From positions 1,922,001 to 1,986,000 of the forward strand of contig NZ_CP034692.1 in NCBI RefSeq assembly GCF_004114375.1: a DNA stretch of 64,000 nucleotides. The letters are read 5' to 3'. Positions 29,325 to 41,774 of this stretch are shown here, in pieces. Origin of the DNA: Halorubrum sp. BOL3-1 (lineage in GTDB: Archaea > Halobacteriota > Halobacteria > Halobacteriales > Haloferacaceae). Position numbers and translations under genes: made by a program. Numbering within the stretch: the stretch's first letter is position 1; each line of letters begins with the position of its first letter. The notes under the pieces were generated by a model. The model ran no database searches. It was not told where the DNA came from and was given only the letters and a program-made list of their open reading frames with translations.

Positions 29325-30404
29325 TCAGAGCAGGTCGTCGATCTCGTCGTTCTCGAACGCGGCTGCCGGGTCGGGCTTCTCCTCGCGCTCGTCACGGACC
29401 GCCTGCCGGGCGCGTTCCAGGAACGACTCGACGCGCTGTGACCGCTCGACGCCCGCGAGGAGGACCAAAGCCGCGATCCGGTCGGAGTCGAGCGGGAAGT
29501 CGCCGCCGCGGACCTGCATCGACCCCGTCTCCTCTTGGAGCCACTTGCGGGCCTTCTCCGCGCCCTTCCGCGAGATCCGGTCCGGGTCGCCGGCGACCGC
29601 GACGAGCGCGGCGTCCGCGTCGGTGGCGGTCGGGAGCGACAGGCCGGTCATCACCGCGCTGCGGACCGCGCTCGTCACGGTGGTGACGTTCTCCTCCGGG
29701 TCCTCGGCCGCGGGCGCCGACGAGAACCCGACCGCGGCCATCCCGCCCGCGCGGAGGGTGTTTATCACCTCGCTGGTGTCGACGACGGACTCCGCGACCC
29801 CCTCGACGGCCTCGCCGGCGGCCAGGAGGAGACCGATCCGCTTCGCCATCGAGGCGTTGATCGCCTCGTAGCCGCCCTCCATGGACTCCCCGGCGGAGCG
29901 CCACGCGTCGTTGTCGAGCAGGACCGTCGCGTCCGCCTCGCGGACCAGGGTCTTGAGCGACCGGCCGGCGTTCACCTGATACATCGTCCCCTCGTCGCGA
30001 CCCGGGAGGATCCCGATCGCGTAGACGGGAACGTCGTACACCCGGTTCAGCTCCCGGACGAGGACCGGCGCGCCGCCCGAGCCGGTCCCGCCGCCGAGAC
30101 CGGCGACGACGAACACCGCCTCGGCCTCCGCCGTGACCTTAGGTGCGAGCGCGTCGAGCACCTCGACGGTGTCCTCGTCCATCACCTCCGCGCCGAGTTC
30201 GTTGTCGCCGCCGACGCCGTGACCGCTGACGCGCGACTGTCCGACGAGGACCGTTTCGAGGGGGAGGGGGTCGAGGTCGGCGGCGGCGGTGTTGACCGCG
30301 AGCGCGTCGAGGACCGCGCCGTAGCCGGCGTCGGCGTCGAACTCCGCGATAGCGGTCGTGAGCTTACCGCCCGCCTGTCCGACGCCGAGGAGGACTGTTT
30401 TCAT
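29325..30404 (-). CDS. cetZ: CetZ-family tubulin-like protein
   Basis: FtsZ/tubulin superfamily GTPase of the haloarchaeal CetZ group, members of which control cell shape and motility. The 359-aa protein starts [19 protein letters not shown]. It shows the tubulin signature '[20 protein letters not shown]' (GGGTGSG, T4 loop), '[20 protein letters not shown]' and 'LLDNDAWR'. It ends in an acidic tail with a short hydrophobic tip (NDEIDDLL). It is shorter than CetZ1 of Haloferax (about 395 aa). It is divergent, with a 74-bp gap, from the pilus-like cluster. Confidence 0.9.
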
Positions 30405-30447
30405 GCCCAGACGTACCGGGCCGTCCGACAATATTGTTTCCCCGAGG

Positions 30448-30458
30448 TTTATATACCG
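30448..30458 (+). promoter_or_regulatory. Promoter TATA box of the coiled-coil gene
   Basis: TTTATATACCG is centred 26 bp upstream of the ATG at 30479. About 20 bp to the left, ACAATATTGT (30429-30438) sits 30 bp upstream of the CetZ start and may be its TATA element, so the two divergent promoters lie side by side. Confidence 0.6.
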
Positions 30459-30478
30459 AAACCGGACCACCCGGTCGC

Positions 30479-31114
30479 ATGACTGACCGCGCAGACGCGA
30501 CCGGACCGGCGGCCTCGGGGGGAGAGCCCGTCTCGACGACGGCGACCGAATCGGACGGGTCGAACGATCGGATCGAGTCCCGGCTCCGCGCCGTCGAGCG
30601 GGCGGTGACCGGAACCGACGCGCGTCCGGCGGACATCGCCGGCGACGCGGAGGCGACGGCCGAACGCGAGCGGCTCGAATCGCGGCTCGACGACCTCGAA
30701 GACCGCGTCGCGGAGCTGGAAGCGGCGACGCAGGCGGTCCGCGGGTACGCCGGGGCCGTCAGGGCCGTCAACCGCGAGGTCGAGCGCCGTGCCGACCTCG
30801 CGCTGGCGCGGGCGACGGCGGCGGAGCGGGAGACAGACGGTGGCGAGGGAGACGACGCCGCGGTGAGTCCCGACGATGCCGGGGCGGACTCCCCGTCCCG
30901 ACGGCGAGACGCGACGCCGGCCGTCGACGTCGACGGCGCCGTGCCCTCGGAGAGCGCGCTCGACGCCGCGCTCCCGGACGACCGGCCGGCGTCCGGGCCG
31001 CGGGCCGGCGGCGACCACGGAGATACTGGCGGCGACGGCGGCGATGGCAGCAATGGCGGCGACGGCGGCGCGTGGGCGGGAGACGCGCTAGACCGCCTCC
31101 GAGAGTCGCTGTGA
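30479..31114 (+). CDS. Coiled-coil protein, first gene of pilus-like cluster (DUF7310-like)
   Basis: A 211-aa protein. Residues 35-60 and 75-115 are Glu/Arg/Leu-rich with heptads ('ERERLESRLDDLEDRVAELE'), predicting a coiled coil. Residues 130-200 are low complexity with a Gly/Asp run. No membrane helix is visible. It resembles a haloarchaeal family I recall as DUF7310 that begins similar clusters. It may be a cytoplasmic scaffold for the machine encoded downstream; this is inference. Confidence 0.75.
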   Translation: MTDRADATGPAASGGEPVSTTATESDGSNDRIESRLRAVERAVTGTDARPADIAGDAEATAERERLESRLDDLEDRVAELEAATQAVRGYAGAVRAVNREVERRADLALARATAAERETDGGEGDDAAVSPDDAGADSPSRRRDATPAVDVDGAVPSESALDAALPDDRPASGPRAGGDHGDTGGDGGDGSNGGDGGAWAGDALDRLRESL

Positions 31115-31121
31115 CCGAAGC

Positions 31122-31586
31122 GTGATCCGGGTGGTGCTCACCGTCCTCGTGGCGGTCGCGCTGCTGACGGCGTCGATGCCGGCGATCGAGACGGCCAGAA
31201 CCGCGACGACGACGGAGCGACTCGGTGCCGAGGCCGATCGGCTGGAACGCGCGGTGGGCGGGGTCGTTGCCGGATCGGCACCGGTGAGCGACCCCGCGAC
31301 CGCGGCGCGGACCACCGTCCTCGTCCGCGCGCCGACGGGGTTCGCCGCGGCCGAACTCGACCGCGTCGCGCTCGTCGAGCCGTCGGACCGACCCGACGGC
31401 GTCGCGCTCGCGTATCGGATCGACGGCCCGCCGGAGCGTTCGTTCCGAATCGGGACGGGTCCCGCGGAGACGGCCGTCGACCTCGTCGACGCGCCGATCG
31501 AACTCCGGCCGGGCGGTGCGAGCCGCGTTCGCGTCCGGTACGTCGACGACGACGGGCCGACACTCCGAATCAGTCGGGTCGGGTAA
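31122..31586 (+). CDS. Membrane-anchored protein with pseudopilin-like N-terminus (DUF7311-like)
   Basis: A 154-aa protein starting with GTG, 7 bp after the previous stop. The N-terminus 'MIRVVLTVLVAVALLTASMP' is a single hydrophobic helix like an uncleaved pilin or TadE-type anchor. The rest is a beta-rich extracellular-type domain ('VALVEPSDRPDGVALAYRI', 'IELRPGGASRVRVRYVDDDG'). No enzymatic motif is present. Likely an accessory subunit of the pilus-like system. Confidence 0.72.
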   Translation: MIRVVLTVLVAVALLTASMPAIETARTATTTERLGAEADRLERAVGGVVAGSAPVSDPATAARTTVLVRAPTGFAAAELDRVALVEPSDRPDGVALAYRIDGPPERSFRIGTGPAETAVDLVDAPIELRPGGASRVRVRYVDDDGPTLRISRVG

Positions 31587-31628
31587 GCGGGTAGGGAAGC
31601 GAAGATCGGACGGCCGAGCGAGCGACCG

Positions 31629-31638
31629 CTTATATACC
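31629..31638 (+). promoter_or_regulatory. Promoter TATA box of the secretion ATPase gene
   Basis: CTTATATACC is centred 26 bp upstream of the ATG at 31659, giving the ATPase and following genes their own leaderless start. Confidence 0.6.
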
Positions 31639-31658
31639 ATACCGCGGCCACGCCCGCC

Positions 31659-33637
31659 ATGAACTTCGATCTCACCGCGCGGATCGCCGGCGACGCGGGC
31701 GGGACGCCGCTGGGGGCGCTCCCGTGGATCGACGGGGGTCCCGACGAGTGTCGGTGCGATCCGACGTTTCGCGAGCCGGTCGGAACCGGCGTCGAGGACC
31801 GAGTAATTCTCGCCGTCGACGCGGACGACTGTCCCGGGCGCGGCGACCTGGCCGCGAGTCCGGCCTGTCTCGCGGCCGTCGTCGGGGCGCTGACCGACCG
31901 CGACGCCGACGTAGTTCGGACTCGGCACCGGGGACGGGAACGGTCCTACGCCGACAGCGCGGCGGAACTCTTGGTCGCGGCGGGACGGTTCCGGGAGCGG
32001 ATCGAGTTCCACGAGGAGCGGCTCGCCGACCGGGTGACTCGCGACCCGCTCGGCGCGGCGAGAGAGGCGAGTGGACGCGCGGGGGCCGCAAAGCGGATCG
32101 CGACCGAGACGGGCCTGCTGGCGGCGGTCGAGGACGTCACGGGAGACGCTGTCGGGGGCGGCGGGGACCGCGACGTTGAGAAGGTGCTTCGAGCGCACGT
32201 CGGTCCGACGGCCGCGACCGCGCGCGTCGCCGCCGAGCCGCCGCCTGGCGCGACGCTGATCGACAGCCGGACGGTGCCGACCGGAGCGACGGTCCGGCTC
32301 TACGAGGGGGACGGTCCCCTCAGGACGTACCACCTCACGCCGCCGACCGTCGACTTAGACGCCGACGCCGTGGCGACGTTGGCCGCCGCGCGGGACCGAC
32401 TGCTCGACGATCCGGCCGGCGGCGACAGAGCGCCGGGGCGAGCGGTGCGAGCGGTCGCGGACGACGACGCGCCGGTCGCGGACCTCACGGAGATCCTGCG
32501 GCGACACACGCACGGCTACGGCGCGTTCGAACACGTCTTCGCCGACGGGAAGGTGAGCGACGCGACGGTGACCGCGCCGGTCGCGGAGAACCCGCTGCGC
32601 GTCGTCCTCGACGGCGAACGGTGCCGGACGAACGTACGCCTCCCACCGGAGGGGCCGCCACCCTCGCGTCGCGGCTCCGGCGGTCGAGCGGTCGCGCCTT
32701 CTCGCGGGCGACGCCGACCCTCGACGCGACGATCGAGTCCGAGACCGGGCGGGTCAGGGTCGCCGCGGCCACGGCGCCGGCCAGCGACGGCCTCTCGTTC
32801 ACCTTCCGGCGCGGCGACCCGGAGGCGTGGACGCTCGCTCGGTTGGTGTCCGTCGACACGCTCACGCCCGCGGCGGCCGGGCTGTTGTCGGTCGGCGTCG
32901 AGCGCGGCGTAACCGGCCTGATCGCCGGCGGGCGGGCGGCCGGAAAGACGACCGCCCTCGGGTCGCTGCTGTGGGAACTCCCCGCGGAGACGCGGGCGAT
33001 CGCGATCGAGGACACGCCGGAACTCCCCGTCGAGGCGCTGGCCGACGCCGGGAGAGACGTCCAGCGGCTCCGGGTCGGAGACGGCGCGGAGCTCGCGCCG
33101 GCGGACGCCGTCCGAACGGCGCTCCGCATGGGCGGCGGGGCGATCAGCGTCGGTGAGGTGCGCGGCGAGGAGGCGCAGGCGCTGTACGAGGCGATGCGGG
33201 TCGGCGCCGCCGGGGAGACGGTGCTCGGAACGATCCACGGCGAAGACCCGGGGGCGGTCGAGGAGCGCGTCGTCACCGACCTCGGCGTCGCCCGCTCGTC
33301 GTTCGCCGCGACCGATCTGATCGCGGTCCTCGACGATCACCGCGTCGAATCTGTCGTCGAGGTCAGCGACCACGACGCCGGCGTGAGCTTCGCTCCGCTG
33401 TTCGAGCGGACCGAGCGGGGACTCGTCGGAACGGGACGGATCGACCGCGGGGAGAGCCGACTGATCGACGTACTTGCGGAGCCGGACGAATCGTACGCGG
33501 CGGTTCGAGAGGCCGTCGACCGTCGGAGCGACCGAATTCGCGAGGCGGTTCGCGCGGGACGGATCGCGCCGAATCGGTACGCCGGAGTCGGCGCGTCCGG
33601 CGGTGCGAGCGTCGGAATCGACGGAGCGAAGGAATGA
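31659..33637 (+). pseudogene. Type II/IV secretion (pilus) ATPase, split by a -1 frameshift
   Basis: Hexameric ATPase that powers pilus assembly or secretion. The 5' frame (from ATG 31659) encodes the N-terminal domain to 'CRTNVRLPPEG'. The family sequence then continues in the next frame from 'GAATLASRLRRSSGRAFSRA'. This frame carries Walker A 'LIAGGRAAGKTTALGSLLWE', Asp box 'AIEDTPELP', Walker B 'AISVGEVRGEEAQALYEAMR' and His box 'GTIHGEDPG'. The switch falls in GGGG at 32651-32654, consistent with loss of one G. An ATG at 32621 could start a separate catalytic piece of 338 aa. It could be a true mutation, recoding or an assembly error; motifs are otherwise intact. Confidence 0.75.
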
Positions 33638-35430
33638 CGGGGGGCCCGTCGGAGACCGCGGACGACTCGACCGCGTCCGAAGAGCTCCGGCGTGCGGTCG
33701 CGTTCCTCGGGTGGGAGGTCTCCGCGGAGCGCGTCGTCGACCTCGGATACCGAGCCGGCGGCGCCATCGGCGTCGTCGTCACGGTCGTCGCGGGGGTCGT
33801 CGCCGGCGCGGTTGCCGCCGCACCGGCGGGACTGGCCGCCGCCGTCGGCGGGGTACACGCGGTCCACCGGGCGCCGGTGTGGCTCGCGTCGCTCCGGCGG
33901 ACGCGTGCGCTCGGCGCGGCGCCGGGACTCGTCGGACGGCTCGTGTTGCGGATGCGGCTCGACCCCTCGACGGAGCGCGCGGTTGGCTTCGCCGCCCGAA
34001 CGGGCGACGGGCCGCTGGCCGCGGCGCTGTCGCGACACGAACGCGGGAGCGCGGACGGGCCGACGAGCGGACTTCAGGCGTTCGCCCGCGAGTGGCGCCC
34101 CTGGTTCCCGGCGATCGACCGCGCCGCGGCGCTCGTCCGAACGGCGGCGACCGCGCCGCCGGAACGCCGCGGGCGGTGTCTGGACCGGGCGCTCGACGCG
34201 ACGCTCTCGGGGACGACGGACCGGCTCGCGTCGTTCGTCGGCGCGGTGCGGGGGCCGGTCTCCGCGCTGTACGCCTTCGGCGTGCTGCTGCCGTTGGCGC
34301 TCATCGCGCTGCTGCCCGCCGGCGCCGCCGCCGGCGTCGCGATCGGTCCCGGAGTCGTCGCCGGCCTGTACCTCGTCGCGCTCCCCGGAGGGTTGGTGGC
34401 CGCGTCGGCGTGGCTGCTCTCGCGTCGACCGGTCGCGTTCCCGCCGCCGCGGATCGGCGGCGATCATCCCGACGTGCCGAATCGGTACGGCCGCGCGCTT
34501 CTCGCCGGCTGCGCCCTCGGCGCCGCGGCGGCCGTCGTCGCCGCGCGAGCCGTCGCGGCGTGGGCGTGGCCGGTCGCCGGGGTCGGCGTCGGGGTCGGTG
34601 TCGCGCTGTTCGTCCTCGCGCGGCCCCGCAGGGCGGTGTTGTCGGACGTCCGCGAGGTCGAGCGAGGTCTCCCGGACGCGATGACCGTGATCGGCGGCGA
34701 CGTGGCCGAGGGCGTCGCCGTCGAGACCGCGGTCGCGAACGCCGGCGAGCGGATCGACGGCGCGACCGGCGACGTGTTCGAGCGCGCCGGACGACGCAGC
34801 GACACGCTGCGGGTCGGCGTCCGCGAGGCGTTCCTCGGGCGGGGCGGACCGGCGGCGACGATCCCGTCGCCCAGGCTCCGCGGTGCGATCGCGCTGCTCT
34901 CGGTCGCCGCGCGGGAGGGCCGCCCCGCCGGCGACGTGCTGTTGGAGCTCGCGGACCAGCTGAAGTCGCTCAGAGAGCTCGAACGCGACGCCCGCCGCCA
35001 GCTGGCGACCGTGACCGGGACGCTCTCGAACACGGCGGCGGTGTTCGCGCCGCTCGTCGGCGGGGCGACCGTCGCGCTCGCGACGGGGATCGACGCCGCC
35101 GACATCGGCAGTCTCGGTGCCGGTGCGGCCGCGGGCGCGGACGCACTCGGCGGCGGCGTGGGCGCGGACGGCGGGATGACGGCGGCCGGAGGCGGTGCGA
35201 CCGGCGGCGAAGCCGGTGCGGCCGACGGCGCGAGAGCGCTGTCGGTACCGGTGCTCGGACGGATCGTGGGAACGTACGTGCTGCTGCTTGCGGCGCTCCT
35301 CACCGGACTGGCGACCGGGTTGGAGCGCGGGTTCGACCGAACGTTGGTGGCCTACCGGATCGGCATCGCGCTGCCGACGGCCACCGCGACGTTCCTCGTC
35401 GCGTTCGCCGGCGCCGGACTCCTGTTCTGA
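33634..35430 (+). CDS. Type II secretion F-family (TadC/PilC-like) membrane platform protein
   Basis: Polytopic inner-membrane platform of type IV pilus-like machines. The 598-aa protein starts 4 nt before the ATPase stop. It has two homologous halves, each with cytoplasmic helical regions and clustered membrane helices (near residues 45-70, 205-255, 285-330, 460-490, 545-598). The second half shows 'EVERGLPDAMTVIGGDVAEG' and 'LLSVAAREGRPAGDVLLELA', typical T2SSF features. A Gly/Ala-rich disordered insert is near residues 490-530. Its intactness beside a frameshifted ATPase is notable. Confidence 0.88.
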   Translation: MTGGPSETADDSTASEELRRAVAFLGWEVSAERVVDLGYRAGGAIGVVVTVVAGVVAGAVAAAPAGLAAAVGGVHAVHRAPVWLASLRRTRALGAAPGLVGRLVLRMRLDPSTERAVGFAARTGDGPLAAALSRHERGSADGPTSGLQAFAREWRPWFPAIDRAAALVRTAATAPPERRGRCLDRALDATLSGTTDRLASFVGAVRGPVSALYAFGVLLPLALIALLPAGAAAGVAIGPGVVAGLYLVALPGGLVAASAWLLSRRPVAFPPPRIGGDHPDVPNRYGRALLAGCALGAAAAVVAARAVAAWAWPVAGVGVGVGVALFVLARPRRAVLSDVREVERGLPDAMTVIGGDVAEGVAVETAVANAGERIDGATGDVFERAGRRSDTLRVGVREAFLGRGGPAATIPSPRLRGAIALLSVAAREGRPAGDVLLELADQLKSLRELERDARRQLATVTGTLSNTAAVFAPLVGGATVALATGIDAADIGSLGAGAAAGADALGGGVGADGGMTAAGGGATGGEAGAADGARALSVPVLGRIVGTYVLLLAALLTGLATGLERGFDRTLVAYRIGIALPTATATFLVAFAGAGLLF

Positions 35431-35484
35431 GGGACCGACGCCGGGAGCGGGACGGCGAGCGGACGCGCCCGCTGCCGGCGATCA

Positions 35485-35494
35485 TTTATATACG
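35485..35494 (+). promoter_or_regulatory. Promoter TATA box of the second pilus-like subcluster
   Basis: TTTATATACG is centred 26 bp upstream of the ATG at 35515. The four following genes overlap or nearly touch, so one transcript probably covers 35515-40330. Confidence 0.6.
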
Positions 35495-35514
35495 GAGCCG
35501 CGGCCAGCCGCCCC

Positions 35515-36009
35515 ATGTTCGAGACGCACCTCGACGCCACGTACGCGTGGCTCGGCCTGGCCGTCGTGAGCGTCGCGACCGCGGGCGTGGCCGCGGCGTT
35601 CCCGGCCTCGCCGCCGCCCGACGCAGACGGCGTCGCGCGCACCGTCGATTCGGTCGCTGACGGGGAGTACCCCGCGACGGCCGAACACGGGATCGCGGCG
35701 GATCGGCTCCGACTCACGGACGACACCGTCTCGCTCGGTGACGAACGAGGGACGGCGCGGGCGGCGCTCGACGCCCCGCGGATCACGCCGGTGATTCGAC
35801 CCGGAGCGGCGGCGAACGCGACGACGGACGCACAGCTTCGGGGCGTGCTCGACGGCGTCCCCCCGGACGCCGCGTTCGACGATCCGGCGGCGTTCGCGGC
35901 GGCGGCCGAACGCGCGAGAGCGACCGACTCGGAGTGGATCCCGGCCCCGGATCGGATCACGGTTCGGCGGGTCCACTACGGAGAGGTCCGCGTCACGCTC
36001 GTCGGGTGA
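35515..36009 (+). CDS. Membrane-anchored protein with N-terminal helix (DUF7283-like)
   Basis: A 164-aa protein, MFETHLDATYAWLGLAVVSV at the N-terminus, with one hydrophobic helix (residues 10-32) followed by an acidic, mostly extracellular-type domain ending 'RVHYGEVRVTLVG'. No catalytic motif is seen. The family name DUF7283 is from memory. By position it is a minor subunit of the pilus-like system. Confidence 0.72.
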   Translation: MFETHLDATYAWLGLAVVSVATAGVAAAFPASPPPDADGVARTVDSVADGEYPATAEHGIAADRLRLTDDTVSLGDERGTARAALDAPRITPVIRPGAAANATTDAQLRGVLDGVPPDAAFDDPAAFAAAAERARATDSEWIPAPDRITVRRVHYGEVRVTLVG

Positions 36010-36015
36010 TCGCGC

Positions 36016-36480
36016 GTGTCACGTGATCTCGCGACATCGAGCGTGCCGGAGGTTCCCGAGAGACCGACCGTCCCGCTCTCCGGCGCCGACCGCGCGGCCG
36101 TCGAACCGACCGCCGCGCTCGTCGCGGTGGTGGTCGTCGGTCTCGCGTTGGGGCTGTACGCCGGCGCGCTCGACGAGGCCTCACCCGACCGGTCCCGGCA
36201 GACCGCGGAAGCGGCGCTCGACCGCGCCGAACGGGCGACCGCCGTCGGCGGCGTCGTCGATCCGAGCCGGATGCGAAGAGTCGAGCAACCGGGGACGGCA
36301 GTCGCGGTCGAACTGGAGGCGAACGGCGAGCGGTGGCTGGCCGCGTCGGGTCCGGACGCTCCGGGACCGCCGGGAGTTCGATCGCCGGGGGCGGTCGCGG
36401 CCGCGGAGCGACGGGTGACGGTCCGGGTGGCGCCCGGGGAGAACATCCGCGGAACGCTCCGGGCGGTGGTGTGGCGGTGA
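36016..36480 (+). CDS. TadE-like membrane protein (DUF7285-like)
   Basis: A 154-aa protein starting at GTG 36016, 6 bp after the previous gene. It has a short cytoplasmic N-terminus ending in 'SGADRAAVEPTAALVAVVVV', a pilin/TadE-like entry into a single helix (about residues 35-56). A soluble part then ends 'VRVAPGENIRGTLRAVVWR'. Its stop overlaps the next GTG start (GTGA). Function inferred only from its place in the cluster. Confidence 0.72.
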   Translation: MSRDLATSSVPEVPERPTVPLSGADRAAVEPTAALVAVVVVGLALGLYAGALDEASPDRSRQTAEAALDRAERATAVGGVVDPSRMRRVEQPGTAVAVELEANGERWLAASGPDAPGPPGVRSPGAVAAAERRVTVRVAPGENIRGTLRAVVWR

Positions 36481-37112
36481 CCAGCACCGTTCTCGACGTG
36501 ACCGTGCTGTTGCTCTGCGTCTCCGCCAGCGTCGTGGCGCTCGGAGCGAGCGATACCGGCGGTCCCGACGGCCCGACGGCGAGCGACGCGGCGGACCGAC
36601 TCGTCACCGAGACCCCGACCGTGACGTACGCCGACGCCGACGCGCCGGACGGAACGCGACGCGTCCACGCGACCCGGGCGGAGCTACTCGCCCTGATCAC
36701 CGAGCGAGACGCGGACGGAGCGTTCGACCGCCGAGCCGCCGAGTCCGTGCGCACGGGTCTCGGTCCGCGGACGCGGGTCGACGTGAGGGTGGAAGCCGAC
36801 GAGGAAGCGGACGGGAGCGCCGCCGGCCCCGCGGAAGGTGGGAGGACGCCACGGCCGGTCGGGATCACCGGCAGCGCGTCGCAGCGAGTCACGGTCACCC
36901 GCGGAGGGGCGTCGACGCAAGCGGTCGACGTGAGAAGACGGCCGGGGAGTACGGCCGAGTCCCGGGAACCGGTCACCGTCGGTCCCGAACCCCCCCGAAA
37001 CGCGAACGTCGCCGTCGCGGTCGTCCGACAGCCCGTCCCGAGTCTGACCGACGACGGGGAGAGCAGTCGAGAGTCGGGTGATGTCGTTCGGATCGTCGTC
37101 CGGAGGTGGTGA
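36477..37112 (+). CDS. Membrane-anchored protein (DUF7284-like)
   Basis: A 211-aa protein translated from GTG 36477, whose GTGA overlaps the upstream stop. It begins VTSTVLDVTVLLLCVSASVV, a hydrophobic helix at residues 5-22 directly at the N-terminus. A soluble domain follows with a low-complexity Glu/Ala/Gly stretch near residue 115. It ends 'ESGDVVRIVVRRW'. No known enzymatic signature is present; it is a putative minor pilin-like subunit. Confidence 0.72.
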   Translation: MTSTVLDVTVLLLCVSASVVALGASDTGGPDGPTASDAADRLVTETPTVTYADADAPDGTRRVHATRAELLALITERDADGAFDRRAAESVRTGLGPRTRVDVRVEADEEADGSAAGPAEGGRTPRPVGITGSASQRVTVTRGGASTQAVDVRRRPGSTAESREPVTVGPEPPRNANVAVAVVRQPVPSLTDDGESSRESGDVVRIVVRRW

Positions 37113-40100
37113 GCGTGGGAGGTGAACACCGAGATCTGTCGAACGGGGAACGGCGGGCGTCGACGTTCGTCGTCGACGAACGGGCGCGGGTTCCCTTCGC
37201 GCTCGTCGGCGTGCTGCTGCTGGTGACGAGTTCGGCGTACGCGGCGGGGCTTGCCGAACAGGGCCTCGTCGGTGAGGACCGCCGGGTCGAACGCGCCGTC
37301 GAGCGCGTCGACGCCGACGCCACTGCCGCGCTCAGGGGCGCGGCCCGAGAGGCCGCCCACGACGCGGCGGCGGAGCCGGTGACGCGCGCGCCGGGCGGAT
37401 CCGGACCGGTGTCCCGAGCGGTCCGCGAGGGGTCGGCCTTCGAGGACGCGTTCCGGGTCCGACTTGCGCTCGCCGGAGCGGAGGCGCTGAGCGCGGTCGA
37501 GAGCGACGTCGGCGGCGTCGAGGCGAGCGCGTCGCTGCCGGCGGTCGAGTCGGCGGAGGACCTCGTCGCCGCGCGGGAGCGGGTCCGGCTCGAACCGGCC
37601 GCGAACGGGACCGCGACGCGGGTGACCTTCGAGGGCGTCGCGACGACCGCGACCCGGGACGGTCGCACCGTCGTGAACCGGACGCGACCGCGCACCGTCA
37701 CGGTCGCCGTGCCGACGCTGGCGGCCCACGAGCGGACCGAGCGGTTCGAGTCGCGCCTCGACCGCGGACCCGTCGAGGGGCCGGGGCTCGGTCGGCAGCT
37801 CACCGCGAGCCTCTACGCGATGGCGTGGGCCCGCGGATACGGCCAGTACGCCGGCGCACCCGTCGAGAACGTCGTGGCGAACCGCCACGTGGAGCTGTCG
37901 ACGAACGCCGGGATCGTCCGCGTCCAGCGGGACGTGTTCGGTACCAGCGACCCCGACGCGCGCGGCGGTCTCGCCCGCGCGACCGCCCGAACGGGCGTCA
38001 CCGATCTGCTGTCGCCGACGGGCGTCCACGAGGCCTCCTGGACGGACGCCGTCCTCGGGGCGCCGACGCCGACGAGGGGGAGCGACGGGGAGGATGCGGC
38101 GTCGAGCGGGGACCACGCCGCGGGCGAAGACGCGGCGTTCGATCCCTCGGCGGACCCGACGAGCGAGACCGCGTCCGTCGAGGTCGGTCAGGCGGCCGAC
38201 CGCGCCGCGACCCGCGTCCACGACGACCTCGCCGGGATCGTGCGGCGGAGCCACCGGGTCGAGGCGACCGCGGAGACCGAGACGACGCGGATCCGAGACG
38301 GGGGGCCCGCGACGCCGGATCGTCCCCTATCGCTGCGCTCCGAACCGTGGCGGCGGGTCGACGGGTCGCGGACGGAGCGAGTCCGCGTCGCGGGCGGGAG
38401 CGATCTCAGGTCGGGAACCGACGGGGAGACGGTGTCGGCCGGCGAATCGGTGTCGTTCGGCGGCGCGACCCGAGAGGTCGTCGTCGAGCGCGCCGCGACG
38501 GCGACGTGGGAGCGACGGGTCGTCCAGCGGGGACCGAACGGGACGGTTCAGAACGTGAGCGTCGACCGCACCGTGACGCGCGACGAGGCGATAGACCGGT
38601 ACCGGATCCGTGTTTCGGTGACCGGAACGTACGCGCCGCGGGACGGCGCGCCCGACAGACCGACGGCGACGTTCGGCGCCGCGGACGGCCGCGACATCGA
38701 CGGGCCGGATCTGGCCGGTACCCCGGCGGCCGCGAGGGCGGAGCTGAGCGTCGAGACGGACCGCGACGTTGACCGACTCGCGCGCGACGCCGTAGAGAGT
38801 GGTGACGAGACGCGGTCGACGGTCGTGTACGGAGACCGGTCGGAGGCGGACCTCGACCGGATCGCGACCGACGTCTCGTCGCTGTCGGAACGCGTTCGCA
38901 ACCTGGAGACCGAGACGTCGATGACCGACGCCGCGGCCGGCGAGTCGGCACCGTACCGGGACCTCGCCGCGACCGTGCGCGAGCGGCGCGACGCGCTCCG
39001 CGACGCCCCGACGAGGTACGACGGCGCGGTCGACCGCGGGCGAGTCGCCGCACGCACCGCGTACCTCGACGCCGTGATCGAGGAGTTAGAGGCGGCCGCC
39101 GAGGACAGGGAAACGGCGACTGACGGCGTATTGGACCGGGTGAACGACGTGTTCGGCGGACCGCCGGTCGGAGAGGTGATCGCCAGCCAGGAGGCCGCCC
39201 GCGATCCCGGGACCTACGCCGTCGGCGGCGGCGGACCGGGCGGCGAGGTCACGTTCGCTCCGGAGGGGTCGCCCGGGTACCTCCCGCGGACGGCGGTCGA
39301 CGGCGAGCGCGTCGAGGGCGTCGACGGCACGACGACGCGACCGCTCGCGACCCGAAACGTGAACTACGTCACGCTCCCGTACAGCGACGTTTCCGGCGGT
39401 ATCGCCGACCGGATCCTCGGCACCGACGACACGGTCCGGATCGGCGTCGCCGGGCGCTCGCTCCTCGCCGCCGACGGGGCGCTCGCGGCGGCCGACGACG
39501 ACGACCTGCGCGCCGATCGGCGCGCGCTCGCCGGGCGGATCGACGACTCGTTGCGGCGCGTCGACGAGGCGCTGGCGGAGCGGCTCGCCGCCCGGACCGA
39601 TCTGTCGCGCGAACAGCGGCGGGTCGCGTTGGAGAACATCGCGGCCGAATACGACTCGCTCGGGGACAGGGCAGTCGCGGTCGGTGAAGGCGAGTACCCG
39701 GACCGCGTCGCGAGCGAGGCGGCCCGAGTCGGATCGCTGTCGGGGGCCGAGCGGATCGGACTCGCGGCGCACCTCCGCGTCGAGACGCGGACGGCTGCGG
39801 GACGCGACGCGGTTCGGATCCCCGCCCGATTCGTCGACGCGACCACGACCGCCGCTCGGACGATCCGCCGAGACGAGGTCGAGTCGGCGGTCGAGGGCCG
39901 CGCGGAAGAGGCGGTCGCGTCGATACCGCACGAGCGGGTTCCGAAGCCCGTTCGGAGCGTCGGAGCGGGAGTGCCGGTCGCGCCCGTTCCGGGGTACTGG
40001 GTGGCGACAGTCAACGCGTGGCACGTTCAGGTTCGGGGGGAGTATCCGCGGTTCGCGCTTCGGGCGAACGTCGGAACACCCGATCGGCCGTTCGAGTACG

Positions 40101-40330
40101 TCCGGTCGCCCGGGAAGGTCCGCGTCGACGTGAACGGTGAGTCGGTCGCGCTCGGCGCCACGGGACCGGTAGCGTTCGAGACGCGGACGGTCGTCGTCGT
40201 GGCCGTCCCCGCCGGACCGCCGGGCGTCGGCGACGTCGACGGGACGCGCGAGGAGACGTCCGGCGGCTGGCCGTGTCCGGGACCGATGACCGCGTCGTCA
40301 GCGGCGGCAGACGAGTGTGCGAGGACCTGA
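37109..40330 (+). CDS. Very large membrane-anchored surface protein (DUF7286-like)
   Basis: A protein of about 1,073 aa starting at GTG 37109 (overlap GTGA; an adjacent GTG at 37106 is the alternative). The N-terminus 'ERARVPFALVGVLLLVTSSA' is a single anchor (residues 24-46) of TadG or pseudopilin style. The long ectodomain contains a coiled-coil stretch around residues 575-670 and many Thr/Val beta segments. A hydrophobic 'TRTVVVVAVPAGPPG' comes near the C-terminus. At this size it is the dominant surface component of the cluster. Function unknown; adhesin or assembly scaffold are possibilities. Confidence 0.78.
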   Translation: MSVGGEHRDLSNGERRASTFVVDERARVPFALVGVLLLVTSSAYAAGLAEQGLVGEDRRVERAVERVDADATAALRGAAREAAHDAAAEPVTRAPGGSGPVSRAVREGSAFEDAFRVRLALAGAEALSAVESDVGGVEASASLPAVESAEDLVAARERVRLEPAANGTATRVTFEGVATTATRDGRTVVNRTRPRTVTVAVPTLAAHERTERFESRLDRGPVEGPGLGRQLTASLYAMAWARGYGQYAGAPVENVVANRHVELSTNAGIVRVQRDVFGTSDPDARGGLARATARTGVTDLLSPTGVHEASWTDAVLGAPTPTRGSDGEDAASSGDHAAGEDAAFDPSADPTSETASVEVGQAADRAATRVHDDLAGIVRRSHRVEATAETETTRIRDGGPATPDRPLSLRSEPWRRVDGSRTERVRVAGGSDLRSGTDGETVSAGESVSFGGATREVVVERAATATWERRVVQRGPNGTVQNVSVDRTVTRDEAIDRYRIRVSVTGTYAPRDGAPDRPTATFGAADGRDIDGPDLAGTPAAARAELSVETDRDVDRLARDAVESGDETRSTVVYGDRSEADLDRIATDVSSLSERVRNLETETSMTDAAAGESAPYRDLAATVRERRDALRDAPTRYDGAVDRGRVAARTAYLDAVIEELEAAAEDRETATDGVLDRVNDVFGGPPVGEVIASQEAARDPGTYAVGGGGPGGEVTFAPEGSPGYLPRTAVDGERVEGVDGTTTRPLATRNVNYVTLPYSDVSGGIADRILGTDDTVRIGVAGRSLLAADGALAAADDDDLRADRRALAGRIDDSLRRVDEALAERLAARTDLSREQRRVALENIAAEYDSLGDRAVAVGEGEYPDRVASEAARVGSLSGAERIGLAAHLRVETRTAAGRDAVRIPARFVDATTTAARTIRRDEVESAVEGRAEEAVASIPHERVPKPVRSVGAGVPVAPVPGYWVATVNAWHVQVRGEYPRFALRANVGTPDRPFEYVRSPGKVRVDVNGESVALGATGPVAFETRTVVVVAVPAGPPGVGDVDGTREETSGGWPCPGPMTASSAAADECART

Positions 40331-40425: not shown

Positions 40426-40875
40426 ATGTTTCACGAGGTCGTCGACGGCGGGTCCGAGTTCGCTGCCGTCGACGACGAGCCGGCGGCGGCGGATATTCTC
40501 GCCGCCTTCGAGGCGATGGTGACGGAGGCGGCGACGAGCGCGGGGGTCGACCGACTCGTCGGTGAGACCGGACTGACCGAGGCGGACGCGACCGCCGCCC
40601 GCGACGGCGAGGTCGACGGGATCGCGGTCGCGGACGCCGCCGGCGTCCTCGCGGCGGCCGACCCGGACCGCGACGCCGACGCGATGGTCGCGGAGGTTCG
40701 CGACCACCTGTTGATGGGGATGGCGACCGCCGTCCTCGACGTCGACTCGATCGCCGCGAAGATCGACGCCGACCTTACCGGCCAAGAGGTCCAGCAGGCG
40801 TTGGAGGGACGAACGACGATGACGCTCGGACAGCTCGCGGAGGTACTCGCGGTCATCGAGCGCCGGAAGCGATGA
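40426..40875 (+). CDS. Conserved haloarchaeal protein (DUF5791-like)
   Basis: A 149-aa acidic helical protein, MFHEVVDGGSEFAAVDDEPA at the start. Its C-terminal half has the conserved-looking segment 'DHLLMGMATAVLDVDSIAAK' and 'DLTGQEVQQALEGRTTMTLG'. The central 'GVDRLVGETGLTEADATAAR' resembles an HTH-like helical pair. I recall the family as DUF5791. Its stop overlaps the next start (ATGA). Function unknown. Confidence 0.75.
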   Translation: MFHEVVDGGSEFAAVDDEPAAADILAAFEAMVTEAATSAGVDRLVGETGLTEADATAARDGEVDGIAVADAAGVLAAADPDRDADAMVAEVRDHLLMGMATAVLDVDSIAAKIDADLTGQEVQQALEGRTTMTLGQLAEVLAVIERRKR

Positions 40876-41774
40876 GAGTCGTCGTCGTCGGCTGCGGCTA
40901 CGTCGGGATCGCGCTGGCTGAGCAGCTCGACGCCCGCGGCCACGCGGTGACCGGCGTCCGGCGGTCCGACGCCGGACTCGACGCCGTCGCGGCCGCCGGA
41001 TCTGACGTCGAGGCCGTCCGCGCGGACGCGACCGAGCCGGAGTCGCTCACGGCGCTCCCGGACGCGGACGCGGTCGTCTTCGCGGCCAGTTCCGGCGGTC
41101 GCGGCGCCGACGCGGCGCGGGAGGTGTACGTCGACGGGTTGGCGAACGTCGTCGACGAGTACGGCTCGCGAGCGTCCCTGCCGGACCGACTGGTGTACAC
41201 CTCCTCGACCGGCGTGTACGGCGATCACGACGGCGGGTGGGTCGACGAGGAGACGCCGGTCGGACCCACCACGGGGAAGACCCGCGTCCTCGCAGAGGCC
41301 GAACGGATCGCGACGGAGCGAGCGGCCGACGCGGGGATCGACGGGACCGTCGTTCGGTTCGCGGGGCTGTACGGCCCGGATCGGTACCGCCTGACGCGAT
41401 ACGTGGAGGGACCGGTGACCGCCGGGTATCTGAACATGGTCCACCGCGACGACGCGGCGGGGTCGATCCGACACCTGTTGGAGACGGACCGCGCGCGAGA
41501 CCGAGTCGTCCTGGTCGTCGACGACGAACCGGTCGACAAACACGCGTTCGCCGAGTGGCTCGCGGACGCATGCGGCGTGCCGCGTCCGGAGAAACTGTCG
41601 AAAGACGAGCGGATCGCGGCCGGTGACCTCTCTGCGGCCGGGGAGCGCCGGATCCGAACGAGCAAACGGTGTTCGAACGCGCTGCTCCGCGGCCTCGGCT
41701 ACGAGTTCGTCCACCCGACGTTTCGGTCCGGGTACCGGGACGCCGTGCGCGCGTATCGGGCCGCGACCGAGTAG
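40872..41774 (+). CDS. NAD(P)-dependent epimerase/dehydratase-family protein
   Basis: An extended-SDR protein of 300 aa. The Rossmann start is 'MRVVVVGCGYVGIALAEQLD' (GxGxxG-like GCGYVG). A 'YTSSTGVYGDHDGGWVDEE' motif follows near residue 95, and the 'NMVHRDDAAGSIRHLLE' motif marks YeeZ/SDR5-type members. The catalytic Tyr-xxx-Lys is not clearly placed: the region reads 'PVGPTTGKTRVLAEAE', with Thr where Tyr is usual. It may therefore not act as a classical epimerase. Coupled to the DUF5791-like gene. Confidence 0.82.
   Translation: MRVVVVGCGYVGIALAEQLDARGHAVTGVRRSDAGLDAVAAAGSDVEAVRADATEPESLTALPDADAVVFAASSGGRGADAAREVYVDGLANVVDEYGSRASLPDRLVYTSSTGVYGDHDGGWVDEETPVGPTTGKTRVLAEAERIATERAADAGIDGTVVRFAGLYGPDRYRLTRYVEGPVTAGYLNMVHRDDAAGSIRHLLETDRARDRVVLVVDDEPVDKHAFAEWLADACGVPRPEKLSKDERIAAGDLSAAGERRIRTSKRCSNALLRGLGYEFVHPTFRSGYRDAVRAYRAATE

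Follow-up and report, generated by a model that had tools for sequence, protein, structure and literature searches.

A cetZ2-linked gene cluster of Halorubrum sp. BOL3-1 probably encodes a catalogued archaeal type IV pilus whose subunits differ in prepilin leader sites

One group of archaeal type IV pili, subclade 4F, has been described as having an ATPase with a Cys-rich N-domain, a TadC protein, several pilins and a neighboring gene of the FtsZ family, and its halobacterial version carries a unique cytoplasmic coiled-coil protein; a stand-alone main pilin, arCOG02981, has been proposed for it (Makarova, Koonin & Albers 2016, PMC4858521). In Haloferax volcanii, the pilB2/C2 regulon adjoins cetZ2; in Natrialbales, pilus genes are absent beside cetZ2, and the pilus genes have been read as possibly mobile (Brown & Duggin 2023, PMC9856176). 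Here we analyzed a stretch of 64,000 nucleotides from Halorubrum sp. BOL3-1 (NZ_CP034692.1, positions 1,922,001 to 1,986,000; hereafter the window) which harbors a pilus-like gene cluster of ~10 kb at 30479-40330 on the plus strand, reading rightward from a divergent cetZ2. With a probability of roughly 80%, we consider this cluster to be an already catalogued archaeal type IV pilus, namely the subclade 4F or cetZ2-linked pilB2/C2 system.

The coiled-coil protein, the FtsZ-family neighbor and the Cys-rich ATPase match the published subclade 4F, a likeness drawn from gene content and lying in the four-Cys ATPase N-domain, the DUF7310 coiled coil (which fits arCOG07564, matched by description) and the cetZ2 neighbor. 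Shared with the H. volcanii regulon are cetZ2, pilB2, pilC2, predicted pilins and, downstream, an epimerase and a small regulator-like gene (PMC9856176); the downstream DUF5791 and epimerase genes of the window fit this described flank (arCOG04674, arCOG03095), again matched by description. Further, several of the parts by which archaeal type IV pili are recognized were found: a PilB/VirB11-type ATPase, a platform, class III prepilins and, elsewhere in the genome, an A24 prepilin peptidase (PF01478, 39 bits, at L095). An initial annotation of the window had noted a pilus-like set at these positions, and we recovered it as a T2SSE ATPase, a multi-transmembrane T2SSF-like platform, the DUF7310 coiled coil and five single-helix proteins, in conserved order and linked to cetZ. 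Its view of a distinct surface system rather than a typical type IV pilus did not stand, as the system is catalogued as one (PMC4858521, PMC9856176) and the proteins do match known, if predicted, type IV pilus components.

From the open reading frame list and family searches, the gene order is DUF7310, DUF7311, ATPase, platform, DUF7283, DUF7285, DUF7284 and DUF7286, with the following features.

29325..30404, minus strand: cetZ2, cytoskeletal GTPase of the tubulin/FtsZ superfamily (PF21011 CetZ_C, 211 bits)
30405..30478, no strand: divergent promoter region of 74 bp (sequence and promoter scan)
30428-30437: palindrome ACAATATTGT in the cetZ2/DUF7310 divergent region (promoter scan)
30448-30455: TATA-like TTTATATA, 31 nt before the DUF7310 ATG (promoter scan)
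30479..31114, plus strand: DUF7310, cytoplasmic coiled coil without a transmembrane helix (PF23991, 96 bits)
31122..31586, plus strand: DUF7311, one N-terminal transmembrane helix, no leader, predicted to be a pilin-like or anchor subunit (PF23993, 123 bits)
31629..31636, plus strand: TATA-like CTTATATA, a possible internal promoter 30 nt ahead of the ATPase start codon (ATG)
31659..32650, plus strand: PilB2-type assembly ATPase, N-terminal part with the Cys motif; the frame is lost at the frameshift
32650..32654, plus strand: single-G deletion splitting the ATPase gene (GGGG here, GGGGG or GGGAG in relatives)
32621..33637, plus strand: PilB2-type ATPase, C-terminal catalytic part (PF00437 T2SSE, 61 bits)
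33634..35430, plus strand: PilC2/TadC-like polytopic platform, multi-transmembrane (T2SSF weak, 15.7 bits)
35485..35492, plus strand: TATA-like TTTATATA, 30 nt ahead of the ATG of DUF7283
35515..36009, plus strand: DUF7283, one N-terminal transmembrane helix, no class III site (PF23954, 168 bits)
36016..36480, plus strand: DUF7285, prepilin-like, class III site R26-A27|A28 (PF23956, 97 bits)
36474..37112, plus strand: DUF7284, pilin-like, leader apparently lost in the window's family (PF23955, 33 bits)
37106..40330, plus strand: DUF7286, 1074 aa, prepilin-like, site R26-A27|R28 before VPFALVGVLLLV, proposed as tip or effector subunit (PF23957, 1078 bits)
40426..41774, plus strand: DUF5791 protein and NAD-dependent epimerase, downstream neighbors that fit the published cetZ2 flank

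The five single-helix proteins, DUF7311, DUF7283, DUF7285, DUF7284 and DUF7286, each have one N-terminal hydrophobic helix, beginning at residues 4, 11, 34, 6 and 31, respectively. Although they had been called uncharacterized, all five are named Pfam families, and DUF7286 is the subunit correctly noted as exceeding 1,000 aa. The platform gene (PilC/TadC/ArlJ-type) directly adjoins the ATPase gene; its T2SSF domain falls below the cut-off in the window copy and above it in the orthologue L072 (30.1 bits).

All eight cluster genes, from DUF7310 to DUF7286, were found in 40/40 relatives. Of 80 named genomes, a set that partly overlaps the 40 relatives, 71 preserve the complete gene order; several of the remainder are broken by contig ends. 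The proposed check on gene order thus came out in favor of co-conservation. Among 292 haloarchaeal genomes, DUF7286 occurs in 224 and DUF7283 in 218, with both in 217, DUF7286 alone in 7 (several of which hold fragments), DUF7283 alone in 1 and neither in 67 (Fisher p ~1e-56, phylogeny ignored). DUF7286 carries an in-frame TAG stop in one genome (G100; L017/L065), and in three others (G012, G056, G067) only fragments of it were found, suggesting recurrent decay.

The neighboring cetZ is divergent from DUF7310 across exactly 74 bp, as first described (cetZ start 30404, DUF7310 start 30479). Its best solved relative is 4b45 (505 bits, vs 316 bits for 4b46), and we take 4b45 to be CetZ2 and 4b46 to be CetZ1 of H. 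volcanii. A divergent cetZ lies upstream of the cluster in 34/40 relatives, and the pilus genes stand without an adjacent cetZ in the other 6/40; for Natrialbales, the published account gives no cetZ2-pilus link (PMC9856176). Deletion of cetZ2 in H. volcanii changes cell length in early biofilm, a result that does not address the pilus link (PMC10606840). A promoter scan placed TATA-like boxes ~30 nt ahead of three start codons, those of DUF7310, the ATPase and DUF7283, which would favor three leaderless transcription units over a single operon. For DUF7283 the box has the same spacing in 17/18 loci where one was found, the window included. The perfect palindrome ACAATATTGT may be a cetZ2 TATA element or a regulator site.

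By a published rule for archaeal prepilins, position -1 is G, A or S and position -2 is charged, ahead of a hydrophobic segment; H. volcanii PilA4-6 have RAVS (PMC4371748). The initial annotation saw no obvious class III site and no prepilin with a standard signal, which proved incorrect for at least two window subunits, DUF7285 (R26-A27|A28) and DUF7286 (R26-A27|R28), and for a third, DUF7284, outside the window's family. The DUF7286 site, R-[A/G]|R-[V/I]-P-F-A, has R at -2 in 41/41 loci and A (32) or G (9) at -1. In DUF7285, the -2 residue is R or K in 40/41 loci and -1 is A (30) or G (11), with many relatives reading R-G|Q-T-E-P (also R-G|Q-[T/V]-E-P).

These sites are compatible both with a pilus and with a distinct secretion machine, in which a short pseudopilus of the type II secretion kind would export or display dedicated cargo, with DUF7286 acting as that cargo or as the piston tip, and long surface filaments would never form. 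The very large size of DUF7286, the many unlike single-copy subunits in place of repeated small pilins and the lack of a main pilin in the locus would fit such a machine, but the published type IV pilus classification with its proposed stand-alone main pilin (PMC4858521) and the nine Pilin_N genes found elsewhere in the genome speak against it; we regard it as possible and not as the favored explanation.

The leader of DUF7284 follows lineage. The site R-[A/G]|x-S-x-x-x-D is present in 13/13 loci of seven families other than the window's, and it was not found in any of the 28 loci of the window's family, whose DUF7284 starts M-T-S-T-V-L-D or near it. By named genomes, the site is absent from Haloferax, Halogeometricum, Halogranum and Halorubrum and present in Halostella, Halosimplex, Halorussus and a Haladaptatus. 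Two Haloferax DUF7284 proteins, L155 and L156, are without it, so DUF7284 would be expected to stay uncut in that genus. On the families sampled, this pattern is one clean loss. For DUF7311, comparison came from four methanogen loci in which the subunits recur: profile alignment with hhalign pairs DUF7311, DUF7285, DUF7284 and DUF7286 with counterparts (P 95.6-99.9; DUF7311 P=95.6, E=1.3e-8), while the counterpart of DUF7283 is one by position only (P=2.2). Several of these counterparts, those of DUF7311 included (e.g. DEKG|ADFL, NERA|ADAL), have leader-like sites, some with an uncharged -2 residue (S, G, Q or N), which makes loss of the leader on the haloarchaeal side more probable than the opposite change. 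In the methanogen stretches fetched, we detected no ATPase gene next to the subunit genes. DUF7286-like proteins of ~980-1380 aa occur in methanogen loci L180-L185 (G299, G308, G511, G345, G488, G408), where their genes adjoin a secreted protein of ~180-230 aa, often with a C-terminal transmembrane helix; in L180-L183, four more pilin-like genes lie close by.

Tentatively, we hypothesize that type IV filament subunits have repeatedly given up the prepilin-peptidase leader, DUF7284 in the window's family and DUF7311 in all haloarchaea sampled, and would either assemble without PibD or become static parts. Under this hypothesis the DUF7284 start would lie near the old cleavage position, so that the mature end is set by start choice, perhaps with methionine removal. 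A literature search found no leaderless pilins, which is weak evidence given its open-access coverage.

It is also conceivable, though we think it unlikely, that DUF7311 and DUF7283 form static columns from the membrane to the S-layer in the manner of ArlF and ArlG, making the machine envelope-anchored and no simple pilus. ArlF and ArlG are not known to have a class III site, and neither DUF7311 nor DUF7283 has one in the haloarchaeal loci inspected. Precedent comes from the archaellum, in which two paralogues of the filament protein, ArlF and ArlG, serve as the stator (PMC9087265). Against such columns, we have shown no resemblance to ArlF/ArlG in sequence or fold, and we identified neither an ArlH-like nor an ArlX/CDE-like gene in the locus.

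The ATPase foreseen by the initial annotation is present but is not one open gene, a point it missed: relative to relatives, one G is lost near 32650-32654 and the two halves fall in different frames. The catalytic motifs are complete (Walker A GGRAAGKT, Walker B ISVGEVRGEEA, His box TIHG). The N-domain motif is CxC-x24-C-x11-C (residues 31, 33, 58 and 70), and these Cys are kept in 111-114 of 115 ATPases, which suggests a bound metal or disulfides. The ATPase is in frame in 115 of the 116 other loci that hold both parts, L132 being the exception, and the lost G is the only isolated coding indel found where the window aligns with the relative G206. Either a genuine lesion or an isolated sequencing error could account for the loss, and since the frame is interrupted here, the machine may be impaired in this genome.

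Decay of the whole locus to a pseudogene in this strain, with the frameshift ending function, is a real possibility somewhat short of even odds. An isolated one-base loss in a gene that is otherwise nearly always in frame fits decay, as do the partial DUF7286 fragments in other genomes and a second pilB in this genome broken by ~3.7 kb of other DNA; yet the remaining locus genes are all intact, the catalytic reading frame keeps every motif and its own GTG start, and one base in a G run is what a sequencing error could remove. We rejected programmed ribosomal frameshifting giving two ATPase forms: a G run does stand at the junction, but because the frame is continuous in 115/116 other loci the shift is not conserved, leaving this idea very improbable. 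The second T2SSE ATPase match lies outside the window (G000:C3:1858494-1862687; L083, L085) and is split, with query residues 81-195 and 211-257 ~3.7 kb apart and the first frame ending abruptly in foreign-looking sequence; the disruption looks like a mobile-element insertion.

Structure prediction for the ectodomains, which had been suggested for all five, was carried out for DUF7285 and DUF7286. The DUF7285 model, a transmembrane helix followed by a helix and four strands, is a plausible helix-plus-sheet (predicted local distance difference test score, pLDDT, 82), and the DUF7286 model is mixed (pLDDT 75). Foldseek returned no significant PDB match (best E 0.65 and 0.51, respectively), and the best VIA Z scores, 6.7 and 4.9, lie in the tool's uninformative range; the absence of a match is no proof of a new fold. 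That these two models match no solved pilin in the PDB counts against assigning the cluster to type IV pili, as do the frameshifted ATPase gene in this assembly, the two of five subunits (DUF7311 and DUF7283) without a class III site in haloarchaea, the absence of a main pilin within the locus, and the lack of any pilus, phenotype or experiment reported for this locus in the cited literature.

Taking the cluster as a type IV pilus system, its gene content is consistent with a machine that uses ATP to build either a pilus or a short pseudopilus. A hexameric PilB-type ATPase would drive the PilC/TadC platform, and the A24 peptidase (PibD) encoded elsewhere would trim DUF7285 and DUF7286, plus DUF7284 in most families. 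Trimmed subunits would then be pulled from the membrane into the filament or pseudopilus, with the very large DUF7286 as the best candidate for a tip or substrate-contacting subunit. The leaderless DUF7311, DUF7283 and window-family DUF7284 would most likely be filament subunits needing no processing, or static envelope-spanning parts like ArlF/ArlG. Positioning or regulation of the machine would fall to the DUF7310 coiled coil and perhaps also to CetZ2, and a main pilin, if needed, would be supplied from elsewhere in the genome, where the Pilin_N genes are candidates.

The subclade-4F or pilB2/C2 type IV pilus has been described before; added here are the clean leader loss by phylogeny, the conserved four-Cys ATPase N-domain, the three TATA-like boxes and the one-base ATPase deletion. 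Five Pfam families of unknown function become testable type IV pilus subunits with exact predicted cleavage sites, and through the cetZ2 link, a connection between cytoskeleton and pilus can be tested in H. volcanii. Should the leader loss prove true, pilin-type subunits would have escaped a processing step regarded as their hallmark, which would bear on the origin of static parts such as ArlF/ArlG.

How the cluster relates to described systems can be set out by parts. Whereas the pilins of subclade 4F were predicted by context and similarity (PMC4858521), we report leader presence and loss by lineage. The window ATPase scores far below the archaellum ATPase family NF058587 (78.6 bits vs a cut-off of 550), and unlike in the archaellum, we identified neither an archaellin gene nor ArlH or ArlX/CDE genes here; the likeness lies in the type IV pilus-type ATPase and platform, as in the ArlI/ArlJ motor, and perhaps in single-helix exported paralogues as static parts, as in ArlF/ArlG. 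Similarly, the ATPase falls below the TadA equivalog TIGR03819 (90.1 bits vs a cut-off of 373), and the locus differs from the bacterial Tad pilus in that we identified no gene for TadB, TadZ, RcpA or Flp. It resembles that pilus in an ATPase matching a TadA-family model, in a TadC-like platform and in the E-P that follows the DUF7285 cleavage site, a feature reminiscent of TadE.

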